Source: Blastopirellula sediminis
GTDB lineage: Bacteria; Planctomycetota; Planctomycetia; Pirellulales; Pirellulaceae
DNA length: 64,000 bases
Direction: 5' to 3'
Assembly (NCBI RefSeq): GCF_020966755.1
Contig: NZ_JAJKFT010000004.1
Location: 1,426,001 to 1,490,000, forward strand
In this document: positions 3,305 through 51,520 of the stretch, piece after piece
How positions within the stretch are numbered: position 1 is the first letter of the stretch
How the letters are laid out: each line of letters opens with the position of its first letter
Notes under the pieces: model-generated
The model's database searches: none
Told to the model about the DNA's origin: nothing
The model's input: only the letters and a program-made list of their open reading frames with translations
Program-made: the position numbers and the translations under genes

Positions 3305-3308
3305 GGAT

Positions 3309-6713: not shown

Positions 6714-6832
6714 GGGACGTCTCGAAATATGGATGAAATTTTATGCTAGACGTGTTATTCTAGGTCCTTTCAGGGGGTATAGCAACAAAAGCCGGGCCGG
6801 CTTGTTTCGCATCCAATCAAGGCGCAGCAAAT

Positions 6833-19254: not shown

Positions 19255-19255
19255 T

Positions 19256-28703: not shown

Positions 28704-28769
28704 CTGGCGCATGATAGAGGTCAGACGTAGTTCTCGACTCTCTTTTTTCCGCACCAGGAGGTGAAGACG

Positions 28770-30344
28770 ATGGTCCCAGCTTCGATCGAACACGCATCAA
28801 ACTCGGATCAAAAGCCCAGCGAGAAGAAACGTGCTGCCCAGTACGTCCGCATGTCAACGGAGCACCAGCAGTACTCGACCCTCAATCAGGAAGACATTAT
28901 CCGTGAATATGCCGAGCGACGTGGGTTCGAGATCGTGCGAACCTACGCGGATGAAGGCAAGAGCGGGCTCAGCGTCGCCGGTCGCGACTCGTTACGCCGG
29001 CTGATTGCCGACGTCCAGGAGCTTCGCGCCGACTTCGACGTGATACTCGTCTATGACGTGAGCCGTTGGGGACGGTTCCAAGATGCCGACGAAAGCGCCT
29101 ACTACGAATACCTGTGCAAGCGGGCCGGCATTGAGGTCCACTACTGCGCCGAGCAGTTCGAGAACGATGGCGGACCTACCTCGACGATTATCAAGAGCGT
29201 TAAGCGAGCGATGGCCGGCGAATATAGTCGTGAGCTGTCATCAAAGGTCTTCAAGGGGCAGTGTCGGCTGATCGAACTTGGGTTCCGACAAGGGGGAGCG
29301 CCGGGGTTCGGCCTGAGGCGAATGCTGATCGATCAGGGCGGGCAGTCGAAATCCATCCTGAACCGTGGCGAATACAAAAGCTTGCAGACCGATCGCGTCA
29401 TCCTCGTCCCCGGGCCTCCTGACGAGGTGGTGGTGGTCCGGGAGATTTACGATCTCTTCGTCCGGAAGGGGAAACGAGAGGGTGAAATTGCGGGCCTGCT
29501 GAATAGCCGCGGGATTACTACCGATTACGGACGTCAGTGGAATCGTGGAACGGTCGCCCAGGTGCTGACAAACGAGAAGTACATCGGCAATAACGTCTAC
29601 AATCGTACGTCGTTCAAGTTGAAGCGAAAGCACGTCGTCAACTCGCCTGAGATGTGGGTCCGGGCGGATGGTGCCTTTGAGCCGATCGTTCCCCCTGATC
29701 TCTTTTTCACTGCCCAGGGGATCGCCCAAGAGCGAAATCGGCGATTTTCCGACGACGAGCTGATTGAGCGACTAAAGCTCTTGGCTAGTCGCCATCCGAC
29801 CCTTTCTGCGGCGATCATCGACTCGGCGGACGACATTCCGACTTCCTCGACCTTCCGTTCGCGATTTGGGAGCCTGATCCGGGCGTACCGCCTGGCTGGC
29901 TATACGCCGGAGCGAGACTATCGCTATCTCGAAATCAATCGCCATCTCCGGGAGCTGTACCCCGACCTTGTTGCCGACGTCGTCCAGCGATTGGATGCCG
30001 TGGGGGCGTCCGTCACGCGGGACGCGACATCGGATTTGTTGCTGATCAACGGCGAGTACAGCGCCTCGATGGTGTTGTCGCGATGCCGCCAGACGCCGGC
30101 CGGGGCGCTCCGCTGGTGGATTAAGTTTGACGAACGCATTGCTCCTGACATCACGATCTTGGTCCGCATGGACCCTGAAAACGAGGTGGCTACGGACTAC
30201 TACCTCTTCCCGCTAATGGATCTGGCTGAGCCGAAAGTCTTGCTTTGCGAGACCAACGGCGCGTTTCTGGATACCTACCAGTTCGACAATTTGGACTATT
30301 TTGCCCAACTTGCCGCACGCAGCCGAATTGAGGTGGCCGCATGA
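28770..30344 (+). CDS. Large serine recombinase
   Basis: The 524-residue protein starts at the ATG at 28770, with the strong Shine-Dalgarno AGGAGGTG at 28756-28763; the GTG inside that motif at 28761 is rejected. A resolvase catalytic domain (~20-165) carries the nucleophile in YVRMSTEHQQ (Ser about 29), then YADEGKSG, VYDVSRWGRF. A recombinase domain follows (GGAPGFGLRRM, EIAGLLNSRGI, GTVAQVLTNEKYIGNNVYNR), and then a long C-terminal region. It would catalyse integration or excision of the element or a nested one. The ATG of a broken RepB-like gene overlaps its stop. Confidence 0.9.
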   Translation: MVPASIEHASNSDQKPSEKKRAAQYVRMSTEHQQYSTLNQEDIIREYAERRGFEIVRTYADEGKSGLSVAGRDSLRRLIADVQELRADFDVILVYDVSRWGRFQDADESAYYEYLCKRAGIEVHYCAEQFENDGGPTSTIIKSVKRAMAGEYSRELSSKVFKGQCRLIELGFRQGGAPGFGLRRMLIDQGGQSKSILNRGEYKSLQTDRVILVPGPPDEVVVVREIYDLFVRKGKREGEIAGLLNSRGITTDYGRQWNRGTVAQVLTNEKYIGNNVYNRTSFKLKRKHVVNSPEMWVRADGAFEPIVPPDLFFTAQGIAQERNRRFSDDELIERLKLLASRHPTLSAAIIDSADDIPTSSTFRSRFGSLIRAYRLAGYTPERDYRYLEINRHLRELYPDLVADVVQRLDAVGASVTRDATSDLLLINGEYSASMVLSRCRQTPAGALRWWIKFDERIAPDITILVRMDPENEVATDYYLFPLMDLAEPKVLLCETNGAFLDTYQFDNLDYFAQLAARSRIEVAA

Positions 30345-30673: not shown

Positions 30674-32302
30674 CTACCCGCCAAATTTTTCCGCTAAGGC
30701 AGTCGTAGGATCGGATTTCGTTTCAACCAAGCCTAAGAACTCGTCGAATCTGTTCAGCCTGGACTCAACGACCTTCGAAATCTTTTCTGAGATCGATTCC
30801 GCTTCTTCCGTGCGAAGTTGACGCGTACGAAAATAGATCGTCTTGTCGAGGCTACCGGTCAACTTGATTTCCGAGGAATCGTACCTTCTAAATATCTCCT
30901 CAGAAACGGCTTGGGGATCAAGTCCGAGCTTTCTTATCGCTCGCGCAATACTTCCAGTTCTCGTGGCACTGCTTAGAGAACGAAGGAAATTTCTCGCGTC
31001 TTCGCTGACGGCGCTAAGTGGTTTGAGCCAGGCCGGCCCCCTGGCTAACACCTTAATCGCTCCGAGGTGAACAAAGGCGTAGAACAAGGCATATTCATCT
31101 TCCTTTCCCTGAAACTCAGTCCAAGGATTAATCGACTTTAGATCGCTACTCACCGAATCGAACAAGCTATTCCAAACTTCTTCGATTTGCGTTGGTTCCC
31201 TGAGTGCCGATTCGATCATTTCCCTCTGTATTCGGCCATTTGAATTGCAGTAGAGCAATCTGCCAAAAGCGGGCTTCTGATCTCGACCCGCTCGACCGAC
31301 TTCCTGGTAGTACTGCTCAATTGACTCGGGCAGCAAATAGTGGACTACACCGCGAATGTCTGGTATGTCAACGCCCATTCCAAATGCACCTGTAGCGAAT
31401 ACGACATCGATTTCACCAGTTTGGAATGCGGATATAGTTTCATCTTTCTCCCTCAGCGACAGGGCTGCATCAAATGGCTTACAGCGGTGCCCGAGTTGCT
31501 CGAAGTATGCCGATAACGCTCGAGTTCCATTCGCCTTACTTTTGATACGGTGGGCGTATACTATAACCTTTTCTCCGCGATGCTCTTCGAGCAACACCTC
31601 GAGCGCGTCATGCTTTTCTTTGCTGTCCTTAAAGGTCGTAAACGACAGGTCAAGATTTGTGCGAAGCATGTTCTCACTACGCACAATGGCAGTTCGATTC
31701 AGTCGAAAGTCGTTTAGGATCTCGCCTTGACTTGTTTCATCAAGTGTCGCAGTTAGGCATAACACTGTCGGCCACGCGTCGCGACCAAAACTGCGGTCGA
31801 ACACACCTGGAAGGCATTTATAGGGAGGTCGGAAATCATGTCCCCATTGGCTAATGCAGTGCGATTCGTCAATTGCGAGCAGGGAAATTCGACTCCGATG
31901 CTTGGATAGCAGGTATTCTATATACCCATCAGTCTCCATTCGTTCAGGCGACACGAAAAGGAAACCGGCCCCACTGTCCCATCGAAACTTTTTCAATTGG
32001 TCCTGAGCCTGTCTCGCATCAGTTGCGCCACCAAGGGAAAGGACGTTCGCCCCCGACTGAATTAAGTTAGCGGCCTGCTGCTGCATTAAGGCGATTAAAG
32101 GGGAAATGACTACGCCGACTTTGCCAGATGCCAATACTGGCAATTGATACGCAAGCGATTTCCCCATGCCAGTGGGCATGAGCAGGAGTGTTGACTCGCC
32201 TTTCCACAGGCGATCAATGGCTTCCCTCTGGCAATCTCGAAAGCCAGCGATGTCGGGATAGAAATGCCTGAGAGCGTTTTCTGGAGCAACGTTGCTTATC
32301 AT
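30674..32302 (-). CDS. RecQ-like DEAD/DEAH helicase
   Basis: The 542-residue SF2 helicase has RecQ motifs: GFRDCQREAIDRLW (motif 0), PTGMGKS (about 41), DESHCISQWGHDFRPPY (about 142), SATL-equivalent LCLTATLD, ATGAFGMGVDIPDI and QEVGRAGRDQKP. The C-terminal ~150 residues lack the Cys-rich zinc site and HRDC of housekeeping RecQ. Its ATG overlaps the stop of the preceding gene by four bases. It closes a three-gene operon with an unknown protein and a NERD helicase next to the BREX locus, which suggests a defence role. Confidence 0.88.
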   Translation of the reverse strand: MISNVAPENALRHFYPDIAGFRDCQREAIDRLWKGESTLLLMPTGMGKSLAYQLPVLASGKVGVVISPLIALMQQQAANLIQSGANVLSLGGATDARQAQDQLKKFRWDSGAGFLFVSPERMETDGYIEYLLSKHRSRISLLAIDESHCISQWGHDFRPPYKCLPGVFDRSFGRDAWPTVLCLTATLDETSQGEILNDFRLNRTAIVRSENMLRTNLDLSFTTFKDSKEKHDALEVLLEEHRGEKVIVYAHRIKSKANGTRALSAYFEQLGHRCKPFDAALSLREKDETISAFQTGEIDVVFATGAFGMGVDIPDIRGVVHYLLPESIEQYYQEVGRAGRDQKPAFGRLLYCNSNGRIQREMIESALREPTQIEEVWNSLFDSVSSDLKSINPWTEFQGKEDEYALFYAFVHLGAIKVLARGPAWLKPLSAVSEDARNFLRSLSSATRTGSIARAIRKLGLDPQAVSEEIFRRYDSSEIKLTGSLDKTIYFRTRQLRTEEAESISEKISKVVESRLNRFDEFLGLVETKSDPTTALAEKFGG

Positions 32303-33282
32303 GCTGGTATCCCGAAACTGTCGTGAGCACGCATCGTCTTCATGTCATCAAGATGCTCAGCACAGACGGCTTCCAAAAAGCGTTCTACGTAGACATAGCG
32401 GCGCTGATCATCTACGCCAAATCCCTGCTCAGCTGCTTTGGAGGATATCCATCGGTAGATGCGAAGTAGATAGAGCGAAAACACGTCGTACGGATACCAA
32501 TAGTTCTGGTCCATCACGAAGCTCCCGTTCGCCGCTTTAGTCTCGTCGTTGATCATCAAGAATTCGGAAGAATCGCTGATCATCCCAAACGACTTCCTGC
32601 CGGAGAGGAAATAGAGCCCGAATAAGGCGAATCGCCCAAGCTGGGGCATTCTTTGGGGGTCCTTGTGAAACAGTACGATCGTCTTGATGCCCATTCCAAT
32701 GACTCCCGGGATATTCAGATTCTCGTCATCATTGATTGGAGCCAATTGGAATTCGGCTGGTGCGTTGTAACTCTTGTAGGCGACAACCGAGTGGTTCGCG
32801 GACCACTCGTCATAGAAATCCAGGACGTTTGTGAACACCGCGAGCAAGTCCGCTGGACGAGCCAGCCGAAATTTCTTCTGCCACTCCTTAAGCTCCTTGT
32901 TTGATTGGCGTAAGGTTCTGGCAATCACGGGTAGCTCGCGGGTCATCAAATGCTTGAACGCATTTGGATCTTCTTCGTATTCCTCGATTGCTCCTTCGTC
33001 GAAGAACTCTCGATACTTTGCAGCTTCACTTTCAAACTCTTCTACAGCGACGTCAAAAGCACTCACAAGCAAAACGCCGTCAGCTTGTGTGCTCGGTTCT
33101 TGCTGAACTCTGGCACCTAGGATCTCAATGACGTCACTAGCAGGCGGTCGGAGGCGATCGAGAAACTTCTGCCAATACACCGGAAGTCCAGTTGCAATTT
33201 CGTTCCACACGTCTTCAATGTGTCTCAAATCCCTGGCGAGTTCGAATTCGGCGTTATCAGTTCGCGCAATCGATCGAAACAT
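32299..33282 (-). CDS. Unknown protein of the helicase trio
   Basis: The 327-residue protein has no domain I recognise. It is mostly helical, with an acidic stretch (EEFESEAAKYREFFDEGAIEEYEED, split here only for description), and no signal peptide, membrane segment or Walker motif. The gene starts directly at the stop of the NERD helicase gene and its own stop overlaps the RecQ start, so the three are translationally coupled. It may be the specificity or adaptor subunit of the helicase pair. Composition is AT-richer than the BREX genes. Confidence 0.7.
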   Translation of the reverse strand: MFRSIARTDNAEFELARDLRHIEDVWNEIATGLPVYWQKFLDRLRPPASDVIEILGARVQQEPSTQADGVLLVSAFDVAVEEFESEAAKYREFFDEGAIEEYEEDPNAFKHLMTRELPVIARTLRQSNKELKEWQKKFRLARPADLLAVFTNVLDFYDEWSANHSVVAYKSYNAPAEFQLAPINDDENLNIPGVIGMGIKTIVLFHKDPQRMPQLGRFALFGLYFLSGRKSFGMISDSSEFLMINDETKAANGSFVMDQNYWYPYDVFSLYLLRIYRWISSKAAEQGFGVDDQRRYVYVERFLEAVCAEHLDDMKTMRAHDSFGIPA

Positions 33283-34980
33283 TTAGGACTCTCCTATCTT
33301 GACGCTTAATAGTCTCGAAATTGTCTTCCAGTGGGTGCGACGCTTTTCCGACTTGCCGAATACCTCAATCGCTGGCTTTAGGTTCGCCTCATTCGTCGTT
33401 GTGATGATATGGACGGCGAGTCGCGCCCTCGAACATGCGATATATAACAGTTTCCGCCAGTCTGTATCATCGGCCTGTTCGAAGTCGACGTCGACAACGA
33501 ACACGTGCATTGCTTCCAATCCTTTGAAGCGGCGCGTCGTATTAAAAGTTATACGCCCCGGTTCGGGAGTTTCGGCTGTTTTCGCTCGGAATACAGAATC
33601 GCGAAAGCCGCTATTCTCAATAGTCTTTAGCGACAAAATGGCAATCTCGTTTGCGGGAACCGCATCCTGATCGAGCAACGTATTTACAAGTCGATTCAAT
33701 AACGACCTTGCCGCCTCGATCGTCGGCACCGGATAAATTGTAGGTTTAGGGCCATCGAGCCCTTGGCTTTCCCCGACTTTTATTCCGGCCGACTTGTATG
33801 CCAATTTGCAGACTTGGTCGCTGTTTCGACAGTTCTTGGTAAGCGTTAGTCGACATGGAATATCATTTAGCCACGCCGCGTCGCGATCGTTTTGTACTGC
33901 CTGAAATGGATCGTAGAACACGTAGAATGCACCGCGTAATTGAAAATGCAGCCTCAGCATGTCTAGCCAGTCCGTCACAAAGTCCTGGGCTTCATCAATG
34001 ACAAGATGGGTGTAAGGCATTGCAACGCCGTCACAGAGATATTCGAGAAGTCGCTGAACACACGAGTCCAAGTCTCCGTGTGGCCCAACGATTTCCCGCG
34101 CAAAACCATGAAAGCTACGATAAGATACGTTCGCTTGACGGTGAGTCTCTTGGAGGTGTTTGCTTAGGGCCGAATTGAAACAAAGAAAGAGAACGGGTTC
34201 GTGGGGGGTCGCTAGGCGTCGTGCCTTTTCAATAGCAAGCAATGTCTTTCCTGTTCCAGCAGGCCCAACTATTGCGGCCTCCATTTGCTGATCCAAATAC
34301 CCTATTACCCTGGCTTGCTCTTGAGTTAACCGGACCATTTCATCGAGCCACTCTTCTGTCGTCTTGCGGACAGAATGAACAAGCGAAAAGGTCGGACAGA
34401 GCGTTCTTCGAAGGTCAATTGTTCGGTCCCCGGGAGGCCTTGAATTCCGCACACTGTTCTTCCAAAAACTGAACGCTTTTAAGATCGCATTTTCCGGATT
34501 GGACAAATGTGTCGAATCCAGGGTCGTTTCGTCCGGGTAGCTCATTGGCAAATGAGTACGATCGACGATGAGTTGATCAGGGAACCACACTGCATGACAG
34601 ACGAGAGTCGCATCCGATCCAGCAAAACGAGTTTTTAGCTCTTCGAGAATTCGGAATTTGGTTCGGTTTGCTTGTTCCTCTGGCCAGATTTTTTCTTCGT
34701 GGCCGCTTTTTCTGTTCTTCTGATACCATTGCCCGTCTTCGCAGCGGATTTCGCCTCCCTTTACTTCAACAACAAGTATGCCGAATTGCGGATGAATGAC
34801 GACGAAGTCGCCTTCACCTTGGGGCCGGTTTATATTCGGGTTCCAGCTGCCAGCATGAATCCATCGAAGCGAGTGCAATACGACGATTTCATCTGGTAGC
34901 GATCGCAGGGCACGAAAGACACGTTCCTCTCCTTGACTTCCATGGAAGTCGTTGGGAATCGGAGGAATCATTTGAGCCAT
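33283..34980 (-). CDS. NERD-domain SF1 (UvrD-like) helicase
   Basis: The 565-residue protein has an N-terminal NERD nuclease-related domain (~12-135: GSQGEERVFRALRSL, EGDFVVIHPQFGILVVEVKGG, with Glu-Val-Lys) and an SF1A helicase core: Q-motif LTQEQARVIGYLD, Walker A GPAGTGKT (about 237), DEAQD (about 327), FKGLEAMHV and ACSRARLAVHI. The nuclease-like core residues (D..EVK) are present. It is the first gene of the trio, with about 190 bases to the BREX helicase gene upstream. NERD-helicase proteins occur in several anti-phage contexts. Confidence 0.85.
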   Translation of the reverse strand: MAQMIPPIPNDFHGSQGEERVFRALRSLPDEIVVLHSLRWIHAGSWNPNINRPQGEGDFVVIHPQFGILVVEVKGGEIRCEDGQWYQKNRKSGHEEKIWPEEQANRTKFRILEELKTRFAGSDATLVCHAVWFPDQLIVDRTHLPMSYPDETTLDSTHLSNPENAILKAFSFWKNSVRNSRPPGDRTIDLRRTLCPTFSLVHSVRKTTEEWLDEMVRLTQEQARVIGYLDQQMEAAIVGPAGTGKTLLAIEKARRLATPHEPVLFLCFNSALSKHLQETHRQANVSYRSFHGFAREIVGPHGDLDSCVQRLLEYLCDGVAMPYTHLVIDEAQDFVTDWLDMLRLHFQLRGAFYVFYDPFQAVQNDRDAAWLNDIPCRLTLTKNCRNSDQVCKLAYKSAGIKVGESQGLDGPKPTIYPVPTIEAARSLLNRLVNTLLDQDAVPANEIAILSLKTIENSGFRDSVFRAKTAETPEPGRITFNTTRRFKGLEAMHVFVVDVDFEQADDTDWRKLLYIACSRARLAVHIITTTNEANLKPAIEVFGKSEKRRTHWKTISRLLSVKIGES

Positions 34981-35171
34981 TGTTCACAGCACCTTTCGTT
35001 TTCACGGTGATTCTCTGATGATCTATTGCTGCCGATGTGTGTGCTGACGGTTGTGTATATAAATGAGTTGGATTGTGCTCCCGAGAATTCGAATCTTGTG
35101 CAAAGCACGTCATCAGGTAAGTGGTCCAGAATCTGTATTCGGTCTATTGTCGCGGTGAATATCGCGTAAAG

Positions 35172-37274
35172 TCAATGAACTAGAAATTTCACCCGCTCCT
35201 CAAATACTCGTCGCGTCGCATCTGGCTCGCGAAGTCGGCACTGGAGCATCTCGATTGCCAATTCTGCCGGCAAGCATTCACTGAACTTCAGGCCATCTAT
35301 AGCCGCGTCTTCCACAACCGGTCGCATTTCCGCAACGTCATGCTGACGGATTGCCTCGATGGCCTGTTCGACATCTTGTTGTTTCAGCGATGGCTCAAAG
35401 GTCAATGTGAAGCTGTCGTGCTTGACCTTTGTGTTGGTGGACAGCGACAGTGCGTGAGAAAGCGTCGCATTGGCGCGAAACCCTCCGAATGTCCACCATT
35501 CCACTTCGCCAGCTCCAGCGAGAATGGCTACTGTGGAGTCGGGGGCGACCCAGGCAAACTCCTGGCGAATCTCCGCAATACGCTCAGCGGCGCGGCGCGA
35601 CCAGTATTCTTCCGAATTGTCCGTCGCCAAGACACGCTTGATCGCTTGGGCCATGCGAAAGCCAAGTCCTTGGCCTTCGCCCATCCAGCGGCTTCGCCCT
35701 GTCGCGTCGGTCGGTTCGACGTAGGCCATACGTCGGCTCCAGTCGATATGGTTGACCTTCCAGGCTCGTCCCCCTAGAAGCAAGATCCGCGGACCTTCAT
35801 GCTTGCCAAGGAATGTCATGATGTCGACGTAACCAATTTCCTGGCGACCGTGCAAAATGGAAAAAATTGGCGGCGACATAAACACGGAGAATAGCTCTAA
35901 GAAGTTTCGCCGGCCGTAGGTGGATTCTCCCTCTTTGCCCATGGCAAGGATGCCAGCGTCTTCCCACAGGATTTCGCGTTCGAGCATTGAGGACACGAGG
36001 TATTCAACCTTTTCGGGCGGAATCGTTTGAAAGCCTGGGACCCCTTTTAGCCAACTAAACCACTCGGCGCGGCCGATGCCGCTTTCTTGCAGCGTCAGCG
36101 CCATCAATTGCTGGGCAAGCACATGGATCGGCATCGGAGGCGGCTCAATCGGCTCTACGTAGCCCTCCCTCCAGAGGTTTATCAGCGCGGATGCCTGAAC
36201 TAGCGTCTCATCTTTGGTCGCTAGGAATAGGCAGTTGCGCATCGTTCCGGATCGCCGACCGGTTCTTCCCATTCTCTGCAGAAAGCTCGAGACCGTGGGG
36301 GGAGAGTCGATCTGAATAACTCGGTCCAGGTTACCAACGTCGATTCCTAGCTCAAGAACGCTCGTCGCCACAATTACGCAGTCATCACGTGAAGCGAACG
36401 CCTCTTCGGCTTGATGTCGCTGGTCTTGGCTTAGGGAGCTGTGGGTCACGAACGTGGTGACTTGCAGGTTCCGCAATTCCGTAGCGAGTTGTTCAGCTCG
36501 TGATCGGCTATCTACGAACGCCAAGCGTTTTTCACCCCGATGCAGTCGCGAAATTACGAGCGCGGCATTTTGTAGTGAACCGACGAAGTCAAGCTGAACG
36601 TCGGCCTGGCCGCCGCCAGAGGATGGGGGCAAGAAAACATCTCGTGGTCCCTTGCATGATCCTGCGAGCCAGCCTGATAGCGTCTCCGGGTTTCCGACCG
36701 TCGCGGATAGACCGAGGCGCTGTAACTCTCGACCGGCCAACTTCGAGATTCGCTCAAGCACCGATAGCAGGTGCCAGCCGCGATCGTCCCCAGCGAATGC
36801 ATGAATTTCGTCGACTATAACGACTTGGAGGTTGGCGAAAAGACTTCGACTGTCCACACTCGGTGAATCGAGCATGACTTCGAGTGATTCTGGCGTCGTT
36901 AGTAGGCAGTCAGGCGGTTCTCGGAGGATCTTTTTGCGGGCAGTTGGTTTGACGTCGCCATGCCAAAGGGCGGATCGCCGGCCGAGAAGGGTGCTGTACC
37001 GCTGCAACCGAACATCAAGATTGTTGAGGAGCGCTTTGATTGGACAAAGATAGAGGACGCTCAGCCCTGTCCAGCCCTCGGTCAACATCCGGGAGACGAC
37101 GGGAAAGAACGCCGCTTCCGTCTTACCGCCAGCCGTTGGGGCTAGCACGATCAAGTGCTGACCGTCGAGGATTGGAGAAATCACCGCTTCCTGAAAAGGG
37201 CGCAGCTCGCGCCAGCCGAGGCTGTTCACGATGTGGTGCTGTAATGCAGGGTGGAGGCGGTCGAAGCTGCTCAC
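35172..37274 (-). CDS. brxHI: BREX type 2 Lhr-like helicase BrxHI
   Basis: The 700-residue SF2 helicase has APTAGGKTEA (about 41), VDEIHAFAGDDRG (about 153), GLSATVGNP, ATSVLELGIDVGNLDRVIQ and QRMGRTGRRSGT motifs of the Lhr group. It is the last gene of the BREX operon, overlapping brxD by four bases. BrxHI accompanies PglW/X/Y/Z in type 2 BREX, where its exact role is unclear. Confidence 0.88.
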   Translation of the reverse strand: MSSFDRLHPALQHHIVNSLGWRELRPFQEAVISPILDGQHLIVLAPTAGGKTEAAFFPVVSRMLTEGWTGLSVLYLCPIKALLNNLDVRLQRYSTLLGRRSALWHGDVKPTARKKILREPPDCLLTTPESLEVMLDSPSVDSRSLFANLQVVIVDEIHAFAGDDRGWHLLSVLERISKLAGRELQRLGLSATVGNPETLSGWLAGSCKGPRDVFLPPSSGGGQADVQLDFVGSLQNAALVISRLHRGEKRLAFVDSRSRAEQLATELRNLQVTTFVTHSSLSQDQRHQAEEAFASRDDCVIVATSVLELGIDVGNLDRVIQIDSPPTVSSFLQRMGRTGRRSGTMRNCLFLATKDETLVQASALINLWREGYVEPIEPPPMPIHVLAQQLMALTLQESGIGRAEWFSWLKGVPGFQTIPPEKVEYLVSSMLEREILWEDAGILAMGKEGESTYGRRNFLELFSVFMSPPIFSILHGRQEIGYVDIMTFLGKHEGPRILLLGGRAWKVNHIDWSRRMAYVEPTDATGRSRWMGEGQGLGFRMAQAIKRVLATDNSEEYWSRRAAERIAEIRQEFAWVAPDSTVAILAGAGEVEWWTFGGFRANATLSHALSLSTNTKVKHDSFTLTFEPSLKQQDVEQAIEAIRQHDVAEMRPVVEDAAIDGLKFSECLPAELAIEMLQCRLREPDATRRVFEERVKFLVH

Positions 37275-38590
37275 AGGTCCAACTCTATTTCATCTACGTC
37301 GCTCGCCCCCATGGCCTGACGTTCCACGGCGGTCATTTCGTTATCGCTCATCGTTAGCGTATAGTGCACGCGCGGGTCAAAGTCCGGGTGTTGATCGATG
37401 CGGTCCAGTACATCCGTCACCAACTTCTTCAGGAATATCCGTGGTGCGACGCCAACCTTTCCGCCAAGCTTACCAGCAACGGCTTCTGCTAGATCTTGGA
37501 CGTAGGCGTCATCGCACATACTGGAGATTCGATCCGGGGAATGGGAGTGTTGCTCGTAAATGTCCCTGACCTTGCAGCCGACCAGACGCAACCGTTCCAA
37601 GCTGAAACCAGGCAAGCGGATCTGAGGGGCGCGGGGATTGTCGAATCGCGAATCCGTTTGAAAATCAACATGTAGCCGTTGAGCCAGCGGCTCCAGGCGT
37701 TGAATTCCTTGGGGGCCTTCATAAAAAGCCGGAGTACCGGTGATGAGCAGGTAAAGGCCAGGAAATCGCCCGGAGTCAACCTCGTCGATCAGTTGTCGCA
37801 GAGCGTTCAGGCTCTTATCACGTACGTCGCTCCGAACCCGTTGGATCGTTTCGACCTCATCCAGGATTAGCAAGAGGCCTGGACTCCCAGAGTCGCGGAG
37901 GACGATCAGTACGCCTTGAAGGAAGCTCAACGCCCCAAAGTGATCGATGTCCCCCTTCACGCCGCACGCTCGCTTGGCCCCCGCAGAGACGTTAGGTTGG
38001 CCTGCGAGCCAGGCCAGTATCCCTTCGGCGATTGCCTGGTCGCCGGCCGCTTGAGCCTGTCGGTAGCCACGTAATGCGGCGCTAAAGGTCGGAGCGGTGC
38101 TGCTGACCTTGGCCAATCGCTGCTCAAGTAATTCGTTTGTACGCTCGATCAAGGCCTGTTGGTCGTTCGGATCGACCGTTCCCTCGGCGAGAGCATCTTC
38201 TTCTAAGGCGTAGAACCAGCCATCGACGATGTTGCGCCAAGCTCCCTGCGGAGTGTCAGCGGTTGATAGCCGCTCCATCAATCGTCGGTACACCGTTTCT
38301 AGCCGGTGCAGCGGCGTTTCCGTCTCAGATACCTGTACCTCGGCTGACGCGAAGCCCTTTTTGCGGGCTCGGTCGGCCATCCAGCGCGAAAAGAATGTCT
38401 TACCGCAACCATATTCGCCGCGAACCGCTTTAAATACGCTGCCGAGAGAAGCGACTTTGTCCAGCTCCTCGTCCAAAACTGGCTCATAGCCGCCGAGTCC
38501 CACCGCGAACGCGTCCAGGCTATTGCGCGGAACGGTTCCGCGACGCAGCGCGTCAATGATCTCTTGCCGGCGTTGAGGGCTAATGCTCAT
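37271..38590 (-). CDS. brxD: BREX ATP-binding protein BrxD
   Basis: The 439-residue P-loop protein has Walker A GEYGCGKT (about 57) and Walker B LLLILDEVET (about 235). The opening (RRGTVPRNSLDAFAVGLGGYEPVLDEEL, paraphrased as a BrxD-type N-terminus) and length fit BrxD. It sits between pglZ (three-base gap) and brxHI (four-base overlap). Confidence 0.88.
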   Translation of the reverse strand: MSISPQRRQEIIDALRRGTVPRNSLDAFAVGLGGYEPVLDEELDKVASLGSVFKAVRGEYGCGKTFFSRWMADRARKKGFASAEVQVSETETPLHRLETVYRRLMERLSTADTPQGAWRNIVDGWFYALEEDALAEGTVDPNDQQALIERTNELLEQRLAKVSSTAPTFSAALRGYRQAQAAGDQAIAEGILAWLAGQPNVSAGAKRACGVKGDIDHFGALSFLQGVLIVLRDSGSPGLLLILDEVETIQRVRSDVRDKSLNALRQLIDEVDSGRFPGLYLLITGTPAFYEGPQGIQRLEPLAQRLHVDFQTDSRFDNPRAPQIRLPGFSLERLRLVGCKVRDIYEQHSHSPDRISSMCDDAYVQDLAEAVAGKLGGKVGVAPRIFLKKLVTDVLDRIDQHPDFDPRVHYTLTMSDNEMTAVERQAMGASDVDEIELDL

Positions 38591-38593
38591 TGG

Positions 38594-41287
38594 TTACTCC
38601 ACTAGGTCGAACTGCTTGAGCAGGATGCTGCGATTCAGCTCGACCGTTTCCGAGGCGTCATCACGACGTAGGACGTCGTAGCCGTCAACGTTCAAAACTC
38701 GTTCCGCCTTCGCCAAAAGTCCAGGCAGTCGAACCTTGGGTACCTCAAGCGTTCGCGCTAACGCCACGCTAGTCATCTTTCCTCCCCGTTCATCCAAGGA
38801 GGAAAGTAGCCGAGCGAAGATTTCATCGGTAGGAACCCCGCGTCCGGCAAACCGCTTTTGATCTTCAAAGACCGGACTGGCAAGCAAATTCGACACCCAC
38901 TGCGGTAAGGCAGCGTCAGCGACGGCCAATCGCGGCTTGTCCTCCATATCGAACAGGGTATCGATAGGCTTCGAGGCCACCGGCTTAAGTTTCGGAACTG
39001 GCTTCTCCGCTGTCGGAATTTTCGCCGCCGACGATGCATCCCACCAGTCTGGCGTATCGATGAGCTGCTCGCTCCAACCTTGGGGGAAGCTGTCCGTGCT
39101 GGCCATAACCGCGATCGGGACGATCATTTCCTGCGGCGATAGTCCGCCGTGATAACCGTTCTTCTTCATTCCATAGCGGACTCGCTCGCTCCAAGGAGCG
39201 ATCAACTGGTGACCGTTCGTCAGAACTCGTGACCCTTTCACGAACAGCTCATCGTTCCCAGGGCTGCCTTTTGCGCTGCGCCAACGTTCCCCACCCGCCA
39301 AGTCTTCTTTGAATGGGCGTCCTTCCGCCTGGCAGTCCAAGACGTGGCCATGATCGCTCACCAGCACCACCAGCCGGCGCGCAATCCGAGCTTCATGAAG
39401 CAGGGCGGGCAATACCTTAATCTCGTCACGGGACCAGCGCGTGTCAATTTGCTCCCCTTTGAGCAAATGATCATCGACGGCATTCACGACGACGCCCACG
39501 ACGCGCCGATGCGTCGAGGCGATTTCTTTCCGAACCTCCGCAGCCAACACCGAGTCATCCGATTCCTGCTGAAGTCCCGCCTTGTGGAAAAGGACTGGGG
39601 GCGAACCGCTTCTGGAGTGCTCAAGCAGGCCAGGGTGCTTGGCAAACCCGATTTTCTCATCCTCTTGCGTCCCCTGGCTCCGCTTTCCGCACAAGAGGCT
39701 GGTCCGAGAAAACTCGGTTACAGAGGGGATCGTGGCCACGCCGGGCCGATTCATGTCGCGACCTGGCTCCGCGAGCAGAATCCAGTCATGTTTCGTCACG
39801 TCGGCAAGCAGCTCGCGGCAAACGGCCGTGCTCATGCCGTCAATTACGATTACTAGGACCATCGCCTCAGCGGCAAGCGGAGCGACAATCTCATCCAGGA
39901 TTTTCTCAACAGGGATTACCTGGTCGCCGTGCGAATTCGCCGCCGTCCAGTCAACAAGCAGCTTTCCAAAGGATTGGCTTTGCTGCTCACGGACGTCGCG
40001 AACACGGTTAAACAGTCGGGCGTAACCTTCCGAAAGTTCACGGATGGGATCGCCACTGCGAAGGCTAAGGCGAGCCCAGTCGACGAACCCTCCCTCATGA
40101 AGCTGTTTGTCAGCCGCTTCGGCGAAGGACTTAGGCTCATTCGGGCCATGCTCATCCTGATTGGCCAGCCAGCGCATCAGACGCAGCGCCATTTCGATTC
40201 TCTCGACGCGCCGGATCTCCGAAGCGGACTGGTCGTGGAGGCTTACCTGCTTCTGTGTCGCCACCAAATCTTCGAGGCGATTCCAGTTGCCTTGATCCAA
40301 GATACCAGACAGCGTTTCCCCCACGCTCACCAATCGCTGGTCGAAACCAAGCGAGGAGGTGTCAGACAAATGTGCCCAACCTTCTGCCTGGATGTCGCAC
40401 AGGATCTTATCGGCCCGTTGGATCGTCTGGTGATAGCTCTTAGGGGCCGTGTGCCGCAGGCTGCGAACAACCTCGGTCGCAGCGGTGCTCCAGCGTTGCA
40501 TCTGTTCGGTATCGGGCGACTTGCCCCCCAAGAAACGTTCCTCTAGCTTTCCAGTCGCCTTTTCCAGTTTGCCCAGGGCCGAAGGATGGTAGACAACGGC
40601 AGCAGCCAAGCCCAAGGGAACCGCATCCGCTCGATCCAGCTTCTCGATGCAATGCAAAACCGTCTTCGCGGCCGGCCCCGCTTTCTCCGCCAACCAATTT
40701 GCCGCACCTTGTCGGAAGGCGTCCGGGCGACGTCGAAATTCGCTCGTCGCGTCGGCATCCAGCGACCACTTCAGCAGTGAAGTCAGGTCCGGGGCCTCGG
40801 CGCGAAAGCCGATCGCCCCTTCCAGCAGCAACGGCCAGACTGTCTCGGAATCGAGGAATCCGCCTCGCGCAGCTGGAAAACCGTCAGCAGGATTCAGCTC
40901 TAGCAGCGCTTCCGCAATCCAGGCTTGTTTCGTCAGCCGAGGATCGACGGCGTGGGCATCGAACAACGATCGCACGATTTGCCAAGGATCGATCGGAAAC
41001 AGCTTCCGTTTTGCCAATCGCAGCATAACGTCTTCGCCAAGGTCATGTTCGTCCAGACCGGTAATCAGAACTTTCGTGACCCCTTCGTCCGTTGGCTGCC
41101 GTAGCGCGATCCGAAACGAAAGCGGCGAGTCGCATTGGTGAATGGAATAGCCCTGTTCGCCATCGTATTTGATCGCTTCTCCGGTCCATCGCCCGGCCGA
41201 ATGGATACCAATCGGGTCTTCACGCGAAACCTTCTGACGGATCGCGGCGACTTGCGCTTTAATTTGGCTGAAGGAAGGTGCCGTCAT
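38594..41287 (-). CDS. pglZ: BREX-2 phosphatase-like protein PglZ
   Basis: The 897-residue protein has the PglZ alkaline-phosphatase-like core: VIVIDGMSTAVC (about 476), ATIPSVTEFSRTSLLCG and LVSDHGHVLDC (about 642), the metal-binding Asp/His set. N-terminal helical regions and a C-terminal winged-helix-like end complete the type 2 architecture. PglZ is essential in known BREX systems. The gene is spaced two bases from pglY and three from brxD. Confidence 0.92.
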   Translation of the reverse strand: MTAPSFSQIKAQVAAIRQKVSREDPIGIHSAGRWTGEAIKYDGEQGYSIHQCDSPLSFRIALRQPTDEGVTKVLITGLDEHDLGEDVMLRLAKRKLFPIDPWQIVRSLFDAHAVDPRLTKQAWIAEALLELNPADGFPAARGGFLDSETVWPLLLEGAIGFRAEAPDLTSLLKWSLDADATSEFRRRPDAFRQGAANWLAEKAGPAAKTVLHCIEKLDRADAVPLGLAAAVVYHPSALGKLEKATGKLEERFLGGKSPDTEQMQRWSTAATEVVRSLRHTAPKSYHQTIQRADKILCDIQAEGWAHLSDTSSLGFDQRLVSVGETLSGILDQGNWNRLEDLVATQKQVSLHDQSASEIRRVERIEMALRLMRWLANQDEHGPNEPKSFAEAADKQLHEGGFVDWARLSLRSGDPIRELSEGYARLFNRVRDVREQQSQSFGKLLVDWTAANSHGDQVIPVEKILDEIVAPLAAEAMVLVIVIDGMSTAVCRELLADVTKHDWILLAEPGRDMNRPGVATIPSVTEFSRTSLLCGKRSQGTQEDEKIGFAKHPGLLEHSRSGSPPVLFHKAGLQQESDDSVLAAEVRKEIASTHRRVVGVVVNAVDDHLLKGEQIDTRWSRDEIKVLPALLHEARIARRLVVLVSDHGHVLDCQAEGRPFKEDLAGGERWRSAKGSPGNDELFVKGSRVLTNGHQLIAPWSERVRYGMKKNGYHGGLSPQEMIVPIAVMASTDSFPQGWSEQLIDTPDWWDASSAAKIPTAEKPVPKLKPVASKPIDTLFDMEDKPRLAVADAALPQWVSNLLASPVFEDQKRFAGRGVPTDEIFARLLSSLDERGGKMTSVALARTLEVPKVRLPGLLAKAERVLNVDGYDVLRRDDASETVELNRSILLKQFDLVE

Positions 41288-41289
41288 CG

Positions 41290-44200
41290 CTACGCGTCGC
41301 CTCCCGATTCAATCACCCAACTTAGATTCACGCGAACCGTCTTGCCGCCTGCTCCCTTCTGCTCTAGATCGCCCAGCAACTTTTTGGCTGCTTCCAGAGT
41401 CAGGCCTTCTTGCGAACCTTGCTCAACAAGCTTGTCCTTGCTTTTAGGCAACGGTTTCACGGGTGGGGCCGCAATCGGCGTCTCTACTACTGGCTGAACC
41501 TTCGCCAGCTGCTTTTCCAAAAGCCGCATCGCCTGCGAATGCGCTGTCTTTAGGGCGGGAGCAAGTGATATGACATGCTCGTCGCTGGCAAGCGCCTTGT
41601 CCACTTCTCCCAGAATCCGTTGTGCTTCCGATTGATACTCTTCCGGAAGTTTGCGGATCAGCTCAAACGTCTGCCAGCCTGCGGTGTCTAGGTTCCCTTC
41701 CAGCTCCGCCGCCTTGGCGACGCACTCGCCCATCGACGCCTCGCTCGTCTCGATCGTCGCTGTGGCCAACGTCTTGACGATCGCACCAGAGTCCGCAGCG
41801 CACAACTTACCAACCAATACCTGCGTCGCATTGGCGGTTTTCATGCGGTCGGTCGATTCCGACGAAATCCCAAACTCCGCCATGCGCTGTTTTAAGAGCT
41901 GAGCATACGCCTGACACGCTTTCTGCACCGCGGCGGCCTTCGTCTTGCAGCCGCTGGAGAGCTGGCTGACGTTGCCGGCGCTCAGTAGCTTCAGGCCGGC
42001 TTCACCAAAGATGCTGCCGGCACGCTTCAGGGCAATCTCCCAGTCCGCGGCTTCCGGCAGGTTCTCTTTGCGGAGTTCACACTCGTCCGGGATCTTGGTA
42101 AGGGAAGCGTCCGAGTAGGGCCCGCCATGCTGATAGAACGACTGGCTGGTTTGCGCCGCGTACATCAGAATGACCAGGTTCTCCGCCTCTTTCGGCAGCC
42201 CCATTGGCTTTGGATCATTGATCCATTCGCGTAGCTTACGGACCGAAATCGCCCCGCCTGCTTCGGCTGTTTTCCGGCCAAAATGCATCTTCCAATGCTG
42301 TCCCAGCACGAAGTGGGTCGCATCAGTCCCCATCTCGCCCAGCAGCAGCGGCACAGCGATCTGGCGCACGATCGGCCGCATCGTCTTGTCGATCGCCAGG
42401 CGGCCATCGGTCGTCTGCGTTGCCGGCAAGATCTGCTCGTAGACCTTCTTTATCGAATTCGACTTGATCTCGGTCTCGAAGTGCGGCGCAGCGGGAAATT
42501 CGTGCTCCAGCGCCTGGCTCAGCAAGTGCTGCATCGCGCCGGCTAGGTTGGGTGCGACCGGAGGACGCGGAATAAATCCTGGCGAGAGCGACATATAGTG
42601 CTCGGCCAAGTCCAAATCGTGCGTCGTATCGAGCGATCCCTGCATGACCGACTCCAGGCCATACGCCGAATCCAGGTGGTTCTGGACTCGCTGGCGCAGT
42701 TGGCTCCGTTGGCTATCCAGGACCGACTTTGCCGCCTGTTGATCTTGGGGCGAAAGGTGGCTGGAGTATTGCCCAAACCGTTCCCCGGTCAGGATATGTT
42801 CCAAGATCACCAGCATTCCCAGGTCCTTCTGCGCCTCCAGGCTGAAGAACGAAGGGACCCAGCACATCGTCTTGCCCCCTTCAGGTTGGATTTGCAGGAA
42901 CTGCTGGATCTTGCTCAGGTCGTCCCGCGGACCATGCCCAGGCTCATCAAACGGGAAGTCAATGATCAACTTCCAGTCTTCATCGTCATTCTCCAGCGAT
43001 GACGGCGGCAACTCGCGAATGTTCTTGAACAGCACCTTGCAGTTGCGTTTCGTGTTGCGCCACCAGAACTCATGGAATTGCTCGAACTCGCCCTCTCCCT
43101 GAATGCCGACCTGCTCGAACAGCATCTGCCGAACGCGGCGAATCCGATTCCCCTGGTTATCTTCGCGCCGGGCCTGCTCGATGATGCTTTCGGTATCAAC
43201 GCCAGAAAGCTGGACCGTAATCGTCGGGTTGGCTTCTTCACCAATACGGATTTCGCCAACGCTCGCCGCCCAGGTCTTGCAGCGGCGTAGCACTTCGGCC
43301 GCTTCTTTGCCTTTGATCGGTGATTGAATCGTCCCATGATTCAATGCCGACAGCTTCTCCGCGGTGAGTGCCCGCAGCGACTCCACCTCCGGCACCAGCG
43401 CCGAAAGCAGCAACGTCTTGATCAATCGGTCGTCATTCCGAAACGCGCTGCGTTTCGGATCATCGTAGGGAAGCTCTTCCACATCCTCGCGGCGCATCCC
43501 ATGTTGTTTTTCCAAGACCGGTAACAGCTTCTGATGGTAGAGCCGCTTGGCGTTGTCAAAGTGGATCGCCATTTCCTGGCTGAACGCCTCGTCGCCGTGC
43601 GCCACCACGTCGAAGAGATCCCCAACCGGGATCAATTCGCCCAGCTTCAGCGTATCCCGGTGGTCGACCAGCAGCTTTAACATCACCTTCAGGGCGGTCC
43701 GCTCACGCTGCAACACGCTGGAGACCGCGATCAGCGTCTGCACCAGGGCCGGGCTGAACGGATAAACCTGACGAAACATCTGCCGATCCCCTTCGCGGGT
43801 CAGCAGGATGTCCATCACGTTGTCCTTCATCTTGATCGTCTGCTCGAAAGCCGCGTCCATTTCTCCCTTGGCGGCGCTACTTCGGCATTTCAAGACGCGT
43901 TTCTCAGCGATCGCCGGCAGGTTGCGGTCTTCCAGGGTGATCGTGTCGAATCGCCCCTGTTGCCAGTCGAGTGAATCGCTGAAGCCGAGCTTTTCCGCCC
44001 CCGGCACATGGTCGCCAACCAGGTCTCGCAGGTCACGCTGTCGGGCGACAAAGCTGATCAGTGGGATCGGCCGCTCCGCCGACTGCGCTTCGACCAAGTT
44101 TGTCAGCTTCGCCGCTTCCCGTTTGACGAACCCCAGATCGGCCGAGTTCGTCGCCAGCCACAGGATCAATTCGTCCAAAAACAGGATCAGCGCATCGTAA

Positions 44201-44970
44201 CCTTGGCTCTTCGCATGTTGGCTAATCAGCGACAGCCCTTTGTCGAACCGCACGAAACTTCCGCCCCGATGGCTCATCACTTCGGCATGCGAAGAGGCGA
44301 CGCTCTTCAGCAGCGCACTGACTAGCCGTAGGTGCTCTTCCGAGTCAGGCGGGGCCGCCGCGGCCGCTTCAAACGAATCCGCGTCCCAGGCCGCTTCCAG
44401 GTCTCCCCAGCCTCCGCCACCTCCTTGTCCTTCATTCAGCCGCTTGAAAAACAGCTCGTCGCCGTAGTTCTGACGCTCCGCCTTCACCTGTTCGATGATC
44501 GCCGTCGAGACGTAGACCGGAGGAGTCGGAGCCTCCGGGTGCAGGCTCCGCATGAACTCAACGTAGTTCCCCAGCACGCCCGACTCCATGTCGTGCGCCC
44601 CGATCATGTGATACGGCACCAGCAGAAACTTCTTGCCCGCCAGCCACTCGTTGTGCTTCTGGATGACGCTGGCCAGTTCCGGAATCCCCCGCGCAGCCGC
44701 GTTCCCTTGCAGAATTAGATGCAGTACCGCCATGAAATGGCTCTTACCGCTACCGAAGCTGCCGTGCAGGAAGGTCGCCTTGCTGGTCCGGTTCTGCAGC
44801 GCGCTGCGGATGAAGGAAAGGGCTGAGTCGTAGCATTTGGCCAACTCCGGCGTCACGACGTAATTGTCGAGCACCACCTCTGGGCGTTTAATGTCTTCGG
44901 CCAAGCGAAGGACGAAATCCCCTTTTTGCAGGTCTTCGGGGATGTCGATTAGTTCTTTGATTAGGGTCAT
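41290..44970 (-). CDS. pglY: BREX-2 P-loop ATPase PglY
   Basis: The 1226-residue ATPase has Walker A GSFGSGKSH (about 70) and Walker B ILFLDELILWL (about 260), the large BrxC/PglY-type fold and a long helical C-terminus. The length matches PglY (about 1200-1300). It follows the inserted AAA-PIN pair after a 110-base gap, in which a new promoter may lie, and is tightly joined to pglZ. Confidence 0.92.
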   Translation of the reverse strand: MTLIKELIDIPEDLQKGDFVLRLAEDIKRPEVVLDNYVVTPELAKCYDSALSFIRSALQNRTSKATFLHGSFGSGKSHFMAVLHLILQGNAAARGIPELASVIQKHNEWLAGKKFLLVPYHMIGAHDMESGVLGNYVEFMRSLHPEAPTPPVYVSTAIIEQVKAERQNYGDELFFKRLNEGQGGGGGWGDLEAAWDADSFEAAAAAPPDSEEHLRLVSALLKSVASSHAEVMSHRGGSFVRFDKGLSLISQHAKSQGYDALILFLDELILWLATNSADLGFVKREAAKLTNLVEAQSAERPIPLISFVARQRDLRDLVGDHVPGAEKLGFSDSLDWQQGRFDTITLEDRNLPAIAEKRVLKCRSSAAKGEMDAAFEQTIKMKDNVMDILLTREGDRQMFRQVYPFSPALVQTLIAVSSVLQRERTALKVMLKLLVDHRDTLKLGELIPVGDLFDVVAHGDEAFSQEMAIHFDNAKRLYHQKLLPVLEKQHGMRREDVEELPYDDPKRSAFRNDDRLIKTLLLSALVPEVESLRALTAEKLSALNHGTIQSPIKGKEAAEVLRRCKTWAASVGEIRIGEEANPTITVQLSGVDTESIIEQARREDNQGNRIRRVRQMLFEQVGIQGEGEFEQFHEFWWRNTKRNCKVLFKNIRELPPSSLENDDEDWKLIIDFPFDEPGHGPRDDLSKIQQFLQIQPEGGKTMCWVPSFFSLEAQKDLGMLVILEHILTGERFGQYSSHLSPQDQQAAKSVLDSQRSQLRQRVQNHLDSAYGLESVMQGSLDTTHDLDLAEHYMSLSPGFIPRPPVAPNLAGAMQHLLSQALEHEFPAAPHFETEIKSNSIKKVYEQILPATQTTDGRLAIDKTMRPIVRQIAVPLLLGEMGTDATHFVLGQHWKMHFGRKTAEAGGAISVRKLREWINDPKPMGLPKEAENLVILMYAAQTSQSFYQHGGPYSDASLTKIPDECELRKENLPEAADWEIALKRAGSIFGEAGLKLLSAGNVSQLSSGCKTKAAAVQKACQAYAQLLKQRMAEFGISSESTDRMKTANATQVLVGKLCAADSGAIVKTLATATIETSEASMGECVAKAAELEGNLDTAGWQTFELIRKLPEEYQSEAQRILGEVDKALASDEHVISLAPALKTAHSQAMRLLEKQLAKVQPVVETPIAAPPVKPLPKSKDKLVEQGSQEGLTLEAAKKLLGDLEQKGAGGKTVRVNLSWVIESGGDA

Positions 44971-45080
44971 TGTATGGATGCTAAGAAATTTTCCATGAGG
45001 TCGCGTCTGGCTAAAAAGACTCAGCGTTTTGCGGATTTAACAAATCGTTTGCCAGCGAAGTCGAAGTGAGCACTATCGCG

Positions 45081-45572
45081 TTATTCATTGAATTGCTCGG
45101 GGCAAAGAAAACGAACCTGCACTCCAACTTGATTCAATGCGTCCCTAGCGTGCCACCAATCGGAATCCGTCGCGTTCAGTATGGGCGGCGCGTATTGACT
45201 CTTTAGGGCGACCACAACAAACTTTCTGTCCGAAAGGTCAAAATCGGCCAAGCCCTCGTCATCGGGAAACTCCTCGAAACCCTTCGGATTGCCGTTCAGT
45301 GGTGTTACCTCGACCATCTCACAGTGGTCGGGATTTCCTTGGTTGTCAAAAATCCATTTCATGAAGAAGTCCCCCACGCCAGGTTGGCCTGCCAAACTGA
45401 GGTTGTTCATGTATTCCTGCATGATGTGGTAGAAATTGTCGATGCAAACGATTCCGTTGCGAGCCTCTTCCAACGCGGCAACGCACTTAAGTACACACGT
45501 CGGCGAGGCTTGCGGACAATTAATCTCGTTGGCGGCGATAGCCACGTTGGTATCAACTACGTACGCATTCAT
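45081..45572 (-). CDS. PIN-like nuclease partner of the AAA ATPase
   Basis: The 163-residue protein begins AYVVDTNVAIAAN, the first PIN motif with its Asp, followed by a Glu-rich helix and a later FDLSDRKFVVVAL and ATDSDWWHAR supplying further acidic residues. Four well-placed acidic positions make a metal-dependent nuclease plausible. The ATG overlaps the ATPase stop (ATGA). There is no antitoxin-like partner other than the ATPase. It probably cleaves RNA or DNA when the ATPase is triggered. Confidence 0.72.
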   Translation of the reverse strand: MNAYVVDTNVAIAANEINCPQASPTCVLKCVAALEEARNGIVCIDNFYHIMQEYMNNLSLAGQPGVGDFFMKWIFDNQGNPDHCEMVEVTPLNGNPKGFEEFPDDEGLADFDLSDRKFVVVALKSQYAPPILNATDSDWWHARDALNQVGVQVRFLCPEQFNE

Positions 45573-46930: not shown

Positions 46931-47050
46931 CGCTAGATGTCTTCCTTATTGGTTGGCCAATTAGCCCAATGGAGCAGTGCTTCCCTTTGAGACTTCCGCG
47001 TGAATGCAAATTGACATGTTTTGGCCGTAGTTCGTTCGACGAGCTTGTGA

Positions 47051-50809: not shown

Positions 50810-50811
50810 TT

Positions 50812-50968
50812 TGGAGCGGTCAGCGGTTAGCGGTCAGGTATCAGCTTTCAGCGGTCAGGGGATAAGGTTTCAGCGATCAGCAGTCAGCTGTCAGCCAGAG
50901 GGGAGAGGACTTAAGGTGGGTCCTGATCCCAATCCTGAAAGCTGACTGCTGATCGCTGAAAGCTAATC
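50812..50968. repeat. Left repeat cluster of the four-helix-bundle cassette
   Basis: The 150-base cluster is built of TCAGC/GCTGA words. A perfect 21-base inverted repeat pairs 50868-50888 with 50941-50961 (TTTCAGCGATCAGC.. and its complement). TCAGCGGTCAGGG at 50848-50860 is matched in reverse orientation on the other side of the gene. Spacing is irregular, so it is not a CRISPR. Confidence 0.8.
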
Positions 50969-50972
50969 GCGA

Positions 50973-51338
50973 TTAGCGATTGTCCTTGGTTCGGAGCTTC
51001 TGGATAAATGCGGAGAGCATTTTCTTCACTTCGCAAGTTTGTTGGTTTAGTTGTTCATAATTGGGTTGTTCGAGCATGTTGAGATCGCGAGCGAGCAGTA
51101 GGTGGTATTCGAGTTCACTGGCGGAACCGGTTGCGATTTCGAGGAATCGACGTAGTTCGTTGTCGCCGTTTCGCCCGCATCCTTCGGCGATATTGGCGGG
51201 AATCGATGAACTCGATCGACGCATCTGGCTTTTCAATCCAAATCTCTCTTCGCGCGGAAAGTTGGAAGTCGCAGAGTAAATCGCCAGCGTAAGCTGGTGA
51301 CTCTTCTCCCAGACTTGAAGATCGCGGAATGCTTTCAA
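50973..51338 (-). CDS. Four-helix-bundle protein (23S rRNA intervening-sequence family)
   Basis: The 121-residue protein has the family pattern: FRDLQVWEKSHQLTLAIY, FPREERFGLKSQMRRSSSSIPANIAEGCGR, FLEIATGSASELEYHLLLARDL. It is all helical. Such genes are frequently mobile and found between repeats in planctomycetes and cyanobacteria; no catalytic activity is known. Here it sits inside the BREX operon between pglW and pglX, flanked by inverted repeats. Confidence 0.92.
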   Translation of the reverse strand: MKAFRDLQVWEKSHQLTLAIYSATSNFPREERFGLKSQMRRSSSSIPANIAEGCGRNGDNELRRFLEIATGSASELEYHLLLARDLNMLEQPNYEQLNQQTCEVKKMLSAFIQKLRTKDNR

Positions 51339-51354
51339 TGTCGGTGTTCCTCTT

Positions 51355-51520
51355 TGACTTTTAGCTGTCAGCTTTCAGCACTCAGCTTCTCTTGTTTTGC
51401 TCCTAAACGTTCATGTTCGCCAGCATTGCGTCTCTTCATTCTTCCCTGACAGCCGATTGCTGACCACTGACAGCTCTCCACTATCCCCCTGACCGCTGAT
51501 CGCTAAAAGCTGACAGCTCT
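51355..51520. repeat. Right repeat cluster of the four-helix-bundle cassette
   Basis: Again TCAGC/GCTGA-rich words, including CCCTGACCGCTGA at 51487-51499, the inverse of 50848-50860. The cluster runs across the stop codon of pglW (51481), so the last residues of PglW (ELSAFSDQRSGG) are encoded by repeat sequence. Confidence 0.8.

Follow-up and report, generated by a model that had tools for sequence, protein, structure and literature searches.

A Mid-RecQ gene pair with an exchangeable nuclease as a candidate immune module beside a BREX type 2 locus of Blastopirellula sediminis

Introduction

Do three genes that lie end to end beside a complete BREX locus belong to a defence system of their own? 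The question is raised by a 64,000-nucleotide (nt) stretch of the Blastopirellula sediminis genome (contig NZ_JAJKFT010000004.1, positions 1,426,001 to 1,490,000; hereafter the window), in which open reading frames (ORFs) for a 565-amino acid (aa) protein with a NERD domain and a superfamily 1 helicase motor (NERD-SF1; 33283..34980), for an orphan protein of 327 aa that we call Mid and that defines the system discussed here (32299..33282), and for a 542-aa RecQ-like superfamily 2 (SF2) helicase (30674..32302) follow one another on the minus strand. A sequence-only reading had singled out this trio as a possible defence unit, arranged in an order that it could not name and placed next to a full BREX locus. 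Coordinates and junctions are as it gave them: the TAA stop of the NERD-SF1 gene is followed with zero gap by the ATG of mid, and the mid stop and the recQ start share 4 nt (ATGA). The BREX locus is likewise complete, and is of type 2 by PADLOC and domain matches. Nor did we find a description of a Mid-RecQ or a NERD-Mid-RecQ set in the open-access literature, a scope that leaves subscription journals and defence catalogues later than 2023 aside.

We give somewhat better than even chances to the reading that the trio is the clade A version of a helicase-nuclease immune module, with a fixed core of Mid and the RecQ-like helicase, in which Mid would gate RecQ against foreign DNA, and with a nuclease that can be exchanged.

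Mid and the RecQ-like helicase form a fixed pair

Single-sequence scans of contig collections found no relative of Mid, and an alignment of three Mid sequences searched against genome contigs returned 14 loci, to which one conjugative plasmid (Aulosira) and one viral contig were added. Clade-specific viral scans gave no new Mid (one found the same contig again, the other none), while the plasmid search yielded a single Mid record and the phage search none. With duplicates merged (L003, L004 and L008, the last a Planctomycetota record, are one contig, as are L019 and L027), the sample comprises 17 non-redundant loci: the window, L002, L004 to L007 and L009 to L019. They divide into clade A (window, L004 to L007; n = 5) and clade B (L002, L009 to L019; n = 12), the Mids of which are one family by profile comparison (probability 100, E 9.4e-49). 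Some loci are close to one another: the Mids of L002, L010 and L016 are 97.5–98.1% identical, and L006 is closely related to L007. As the trio of L007, titled Leptolyngbya, nearly matches that of the Phycisphaerae locus L006, the taxon of L007 may be misassigned.

At all 17 loci the RecQ-like gene lies directly 3' of mid on a common strand, with an 11-nt overlap at 11 loci, a 4-nt overlap at four (window, L005 to L007), a 23-nt overlap at L019 and a 2-nt gap at L004. The distances of the two proteins co-vary, both among 11 clade B loci (Mantel r 0.89, p 0.0002) and among the five clade A loci (r 0.94, p 0.036), and among 294 genomes of the window's phylum RecQ homologues at E<=1e-85 occur in two, the same two that carry Mid. 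NERD-SF1 is found directly 5' of Mid at 4/5 clade A loci, and the NERD-Mid-RecQ order is thus present at three loci besides the window (L004/L008, L006 and L007). Between L006 and L007 the three trio genes show purifying selection, with ratios of non-synonymous to synonymous substitution (dN/dS) of 0.059, 0.121 and 0.117. Because the order recurs at three other loci and the genes are under such selection, we regard it as beyond chance. The idea that the genes travel together therefore stands, since Mid and RecQ are nowhere apart and the full trio occurs four times; what does not stand is an obligate three-gene unit, the fixed core being Mid and RecQ.

The Mid family is rare and patchy in its spread. 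Among 147 relatives only the genome of the window carries it, and three genomes of the same genus lack it; it occurs in 2 of the 294 phylum genomes, and in 1/395 and 1/339 genomes around two other seeds, both hits being the seed genomes. This distribution bears on a further explanation, namely that the set is a horizontally moving module for DNA repair or replication restart and not for defence. RecQ-family helicases and SF1 helicase-nucleases are in general repair enzymes, so that a RecQ next to a helicase-nuclease resembles recombination machinery, and four loci (L009, L011, L012 and L015) have no defence gene among the neighbours sampled. The rarity and patchiness of the family, missing even from the same-genus genomes, and the six clear defence settings described below argue against a repair module, which we hold to be very unlikely.

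Two putative nuclease arrangements

NERD-SF1 would be the nuclease-motor partner of clade A. Its N-terminal NERD domain (aa ~14-119; Pfam E 6.5e-13) is accompanied by SF1-type helicase matches (UvrD_C_2, E 9.2e-10) and by the SF1 motifs GPAGTGKT and DEAQD. Residues E18, D58 and E72-x-K74, which we take to be the catalytic residues of NERD, are invariant in 4/4 homologues, and both the domain match and these conserved acidic and ExK residues place the protein in the PD-(D/E)XK (NERD) group. The NERD proteins of L004/L008, L006 and L007 are 46-52% identical to that of the window. At a threshold of E<=1e-20, NERD homologues were found in 16/294 phylum genomes, with at least 46% identity in the two Mid carriers only and 28-34% in the other 14. 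That the distant homologues might mark hidden Mid systems was considered and rejected: at 10 of these 14 loci inspected, no ORF of at least 60 aa matched Mid. PADLOC scans of neighbours covered three of the distant homologues and found DruE and DrmMI (L041), DruE (L043) and DrmA-DrmB (L049); the data suggest that NERD-SF1 is a recurrent partner of large defence helicases.

The RecQ-like protein of the window has Pfam DEAD and Helicase_C domains and the core motifs MPTGMGKS, DESHCISQWGHDFRP and QEVGRAGRD. It passes the RecQ-family cut-off (TIGR00614, 261.8 bits vs 219.8) and does not reach the canonical RecQ equivalog (TIGR01389, 280.5 bits vs 640.2). No Pfam match to an RQC, zinc-binding or HRDC domain was obtained, and its C-terminal ~160 aa were assigned to no family. 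Clade A RecQs are 542-561 aa long and complete clade B RecQs 662-678 aa, and a C-terminal signature (SKSE...EPDFT...W[YF]WEHLG) is found in 11/11 of the complete clade B proteins and is absent from the window RecQ. None of the 12 clade B loci has a NERD match at E<=1 (tblastn), and 10 clade B genomes contain no close NERD and one distant homologue (29%, E 5.4e-26). When the last 302 residues of a clade B RecQ were modelled with AlphaFold2, the final ~110 residues scored mostly 63-90 in the predicted local distance difference test (pLDDT), with a core predicted as alpha-beta-beta-beta-alpha-beta followed by another helix. The top Foldseek matches of this extension in the PDB are for the most part nucleases of the restriction-like kind, led by the R2 retrotransposon endonuclease (E 4.4e-3, prob 1.00) and Bax1 (prob 0.87-0.99), with Can2/Cdn1, McrC, AbaSI, RecU, Cas4 and TnsA, among others, further down. 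R2 endonuclease, Bax1, Can2, McrC and similar matches presumably share the PD-(D/E)XK fold, and the C-terminal extension of clade B RecQ is accordingly a predicted PD-(D/E)XK nuclease of uncertain activity.

Mid matches no catalogued family

The window Mid was searched against PADLOC (E<=0.001), Pfam and NCBIfam (E<=0.1) and PDB sequences (E<=1) and gave zero matches at these cut-offs; the NCBIfam search covered this Mid alone. Across 16 members, ten Pfam families each matched one member (best E 0.0038), and in PADLOC, Cas12f matched two (best E 3.9e-4) and PDC-S50 and AbiEi one each. Such matches, scattered over few members, were taken as chance and these candidates rejected. PHROGs gave none at E<=0.01, and the Mid profile met just two designed miniproteins in the PDB (E 2.6 and 3.4). 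It is therefore supported that Mid belongs to no catalogued family in the libraries searched, as its lack of any recognisable family had first suggested.

The AlphaFold2 model of Mid (pLDDT 83.3; predicted template modelling score, pTM, 0.85) is confident and almost all-helical, with one short strand pair. Foldseek returned nothing significant for it in the PDB (best E 1.6) or BFVD (best E 1.3), with a template modelling score to the query of at most 0.19 among the matches listed, which suggests a new predicted fold relative to these two collections, as distinct from predicted cellular structures. The 16 Mid sequences share 38 invariant columns, including GxGIK and a Q-N-Y/P-Y patch.

Likeness to known systems

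In RqlHI/PsyrTA, as in Mid-RecQ, a RecQ-type helicase shares a two-gene operon with its own partner protein, and the helicase carries an extra C-terminal effector domain, comparable in position to the C-terminal extension of clade B. According to PMC4670107, RqlI restrains the genotoxic RecQ-like RqlH, the two interact and they form an operon. By this precedent the system could be a toxin-antitoxin pair, in which the RecQ-like helicase (with the nuclease) would be genotoxic and Mid an antitoxin-like restraint released on infection. The window RecQ matches PADLOC PsyrT over the helicase core (E 5.2e-74), and the position of Mid 5' of RecQ in 17/17 loci is the usual antitoxin-first order; the PsyrT match is, however, generic to the RecQ core. 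In the same source, RqlH toxicity maps to its phosphoribosyltransferase (PRTase) effector domain, and RqlI is DprA-homologous and encoded downstream of RqlH. The window RecQ, in contrast, has no Pfam PRTase match (E<=0.1), and Mid lies upstream, gives no DprA match and is outside all library families, while the effector would be a nuclease. We regard a toxin-antitoxin pair as unlikely.

The helicase-nuclease systems resemble the trio in parts. The best match of the window NERD-SF1 is the DRT-associated RTasNERD-Hel of PADLOC (E 3e-52), to which it aligns over nearly the whole length (aa 1-526 against model positions 1-510 of 519). The trio differs in that the partners are Mid and RecQ; the neighbouring genes that could be identified, namely those for BrxHI, Mid, RecQ, the recombinase and Trans_reg_C, include no reverse transcriptase, part of the window ORFs having been scanned. 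Nhi and Gabija follow the same logic of a nuclease joined to an SF1 helicase. The Nhi match is weak and local (E 3.3e-8), aligning aa 207-366 with model positions 172-305 of 470, over the helicase piece and not full length. GajB of Gabija, an SF1 helicase, gives a similarly weak local match to the helicase piece (E 2.9e-8), and no GajA-type OLD nuclease adjoins the trio, the neighbours of NERD-SF1 being Mid and BrxHI. As opposed to Nhi and Gabija, the trio links a second helicase and Mid. DISARM, Druantia and ARMADA-type systems likewise place large helicases in one operon with a nuclease and further partners, and distant NERD-SF1 homologues adjoin their components at the three loci named above; the trio, however, is without DrmA, DrmB, DrmMI, DruE or YprA and is flanked by BrxHI and a serine recombinase. 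Finally, archaeal XPB-Bax1 pairs an SF2 helicase with a PD-(D/E)XK nuclease, Bax1 being among the top structural matches of the clade B extension, although this resemblance is at fold level only, the helicase is of another family and Mid has no counterpart.

Defence-gene setting

Neighbours of the 17 loci were sampled, and clear defence genes lie beside 6/17, a raw count that has no random-locus baseline. The window adjoins BREX and HEC-03; L006 a methyltransferase and a CBASS cyclase; L007 Type I M and S; L010 a C5 methyltransferase and pAgo; L017 Type I restriction-modification (HsdR, HsdM) and MkoA (Mokosh); and L018 Type III Mod and Res together with a CBASS cyclase and NUDIX. A defence-like setting, as first proposed for the window, is thus observed there and at five other loci.

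The proximity to BREX raises the possibility that the trio is an accessory, DNA-degrading arm of the neighbouring BREX or modification system, with host methylation as the mark of self. The trio lies on the brxHI strand, 191 nt downstream, and three of the four NERD-bearing loci have a same-strand DNA methyltransferase upstream: PglX in the window, a methyltransferase that ends 56 nt before NERD at L006, and Type I M and S at L007. The other Mid loci, however, contain no BREX gene at tblastn E<=1e-5, cross-matches of helicases aside, clade B pairs adjoin varied or no defence genes, and the accessible part of the BREX survey PMC12839542 does not contain 'RecQ' and mentions NERD with regard to PglW. 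An accessory role in BREX is, in our view, distinctly unlikely.

Proposed mechanism and its weighing

Returning to the immune module, the sequences themselves establish the pairing, gene order and conservation, the intact NERD and helicase motifs and the exchange of the predicted nuclease between clades; a Mid-RecQ complex, DNA as its target, the role of Mid and phage defence we infer. RecQ would load on invading DNA at ends, forks or gaps and unwind it. Mid, presumably translated from a shared transcript just before RecQ, would bind RecQ and decide when or on what it acts, whether as sensor, loader or restraint, and the nuclease would then cut the opened DNA. In clade A this nuclease would act in trans as NERD-SF1, itself a second motor, and in clade B it would be fused to the RecQ C-terminus.

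Several observations weigh against this reading. At the clade A locus L005 no NERD was found in 21 kb (best tblastn E 0.047) or in the genome at E<=1e-5, so that the nuclease is not always present. The model of the clade B extension is poor overall (pLDDT 54.2, pTM 0.42), none of its 269 Foldseek matches in the PDB at E<=10 reaches E<=0.001, and it reads E-H-L where ExK is expected; the weak model and this triplet are the reason why its nuclease activity is called uncertain. Only 1,035 nt (L013) and 1 nt (L014) precede the mid frame at two clade B loci, a short upstream region in which to look for NERD. Nine of the 17 loci (L002, L005, L009, L011 to L015 and L019) have no clear defence gene among the neighbours sampled, and L004 and L016 have a nearby defence-type helicase only. 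The helicase of L004 is DrmD/BrxHII-like and divergent from NERD, and a YprA-like helicase lies near L010 (from a scan) and L016 (from a blastp match to BrxHI).

In its widest form, we consider the case evenly balanced: Mid-RecQ would stand at the centre of a prokaryotic immune system that has so far escaped recognition, spread over several phyla and a conjugative plasmid, in which a family of new fold gates RecQ and the nuclease is swapped between NERD-SF1 in trans and PD-(D/E)XK in cis. Helicase-nuclease immunity is an established theme, and a family of unknown fold that is locked to RecQ, with a nuclease exchanged by clade, would be a new architecture if true. It would also be a natural experiment that could tell the sensing part from the killing part, and the clade B version, just two genes, makes it directly testable. 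The Mid profile, absent from PADLOC-DB 2.0.0 (2023), could serve as a specific marker for the system.

Neighbouring genes of the window and of other loci

The BREX type 2 locus (35172..55737, minus strand) has the orientation of the trio and is context outside the module, the trio genes being non-BREX components. It consists of brxHI (35172-37274), brxD (37271-38590), pglZ (38594-41287), brxC/pglY (41290-44970) and pglX (47051-50809), all assigned by PADLOC, and pglW (51481-55737), which has NERD and kinase domains; it is called type 2 because of this gene content and because PglW is a type 2 component in PMC12839542. The gap between the brxHI stop and the NERD-SF1 start (34981..35171) is 191 nt, and the single sigma-70-like site there (35175-35146) is weak and within shuffle expectation, so that a separate trio promoter is not supported. 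Between pglX and brxC/pglY lies the candidate defence pair HEC-03A/HEC-03B (45081-46930, minus strand; PADLOC E 2.7e-42 and 1.2e-174), in which the AAA protein (45569-46930) matches HEC-03B best and not GajA.

On the other side, convergent with the trio, a large serine recombinase is encoded on the plus strand (28761..30344; Pfam Resolvase and Recombinase, weak HNH_repeat), with no match in the three same-genus genomes searched. Proteins of the left and right flanks gave no usable shared neighbourhood for island boundaries in same-genus genomes, and for this reason no empty site is claimed. ORFs in L013, L017, L005 and L019 were read as serine recombinases by eye only.

At L010 an SLFN_AlbA_2-Piwi protein (16153-19521, minus strand) with a full-length PADLOC pAgo match lies beside the clade B pair. 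Upstream of the L007 trio, a Type I methylase with HSDR_N, a specificity subunit and a DndB-like gene overlap one another (1904-7328, plus strand); the last (5709-7328) has a sub-threshold Pfam DndB match and, by eye only, a TIR-like end. Two L006 ORFs (1033-2940 and 2-1069) look HerA-like and NurA-like by eye only, Pfam giving no match for 1033-2940. Elsewhere in the window, the minus strand encodes a WD40-caspase protein (3309-6713) and a fusion of a protein kinase with an FGE-sulfatase domain (11157-13364).

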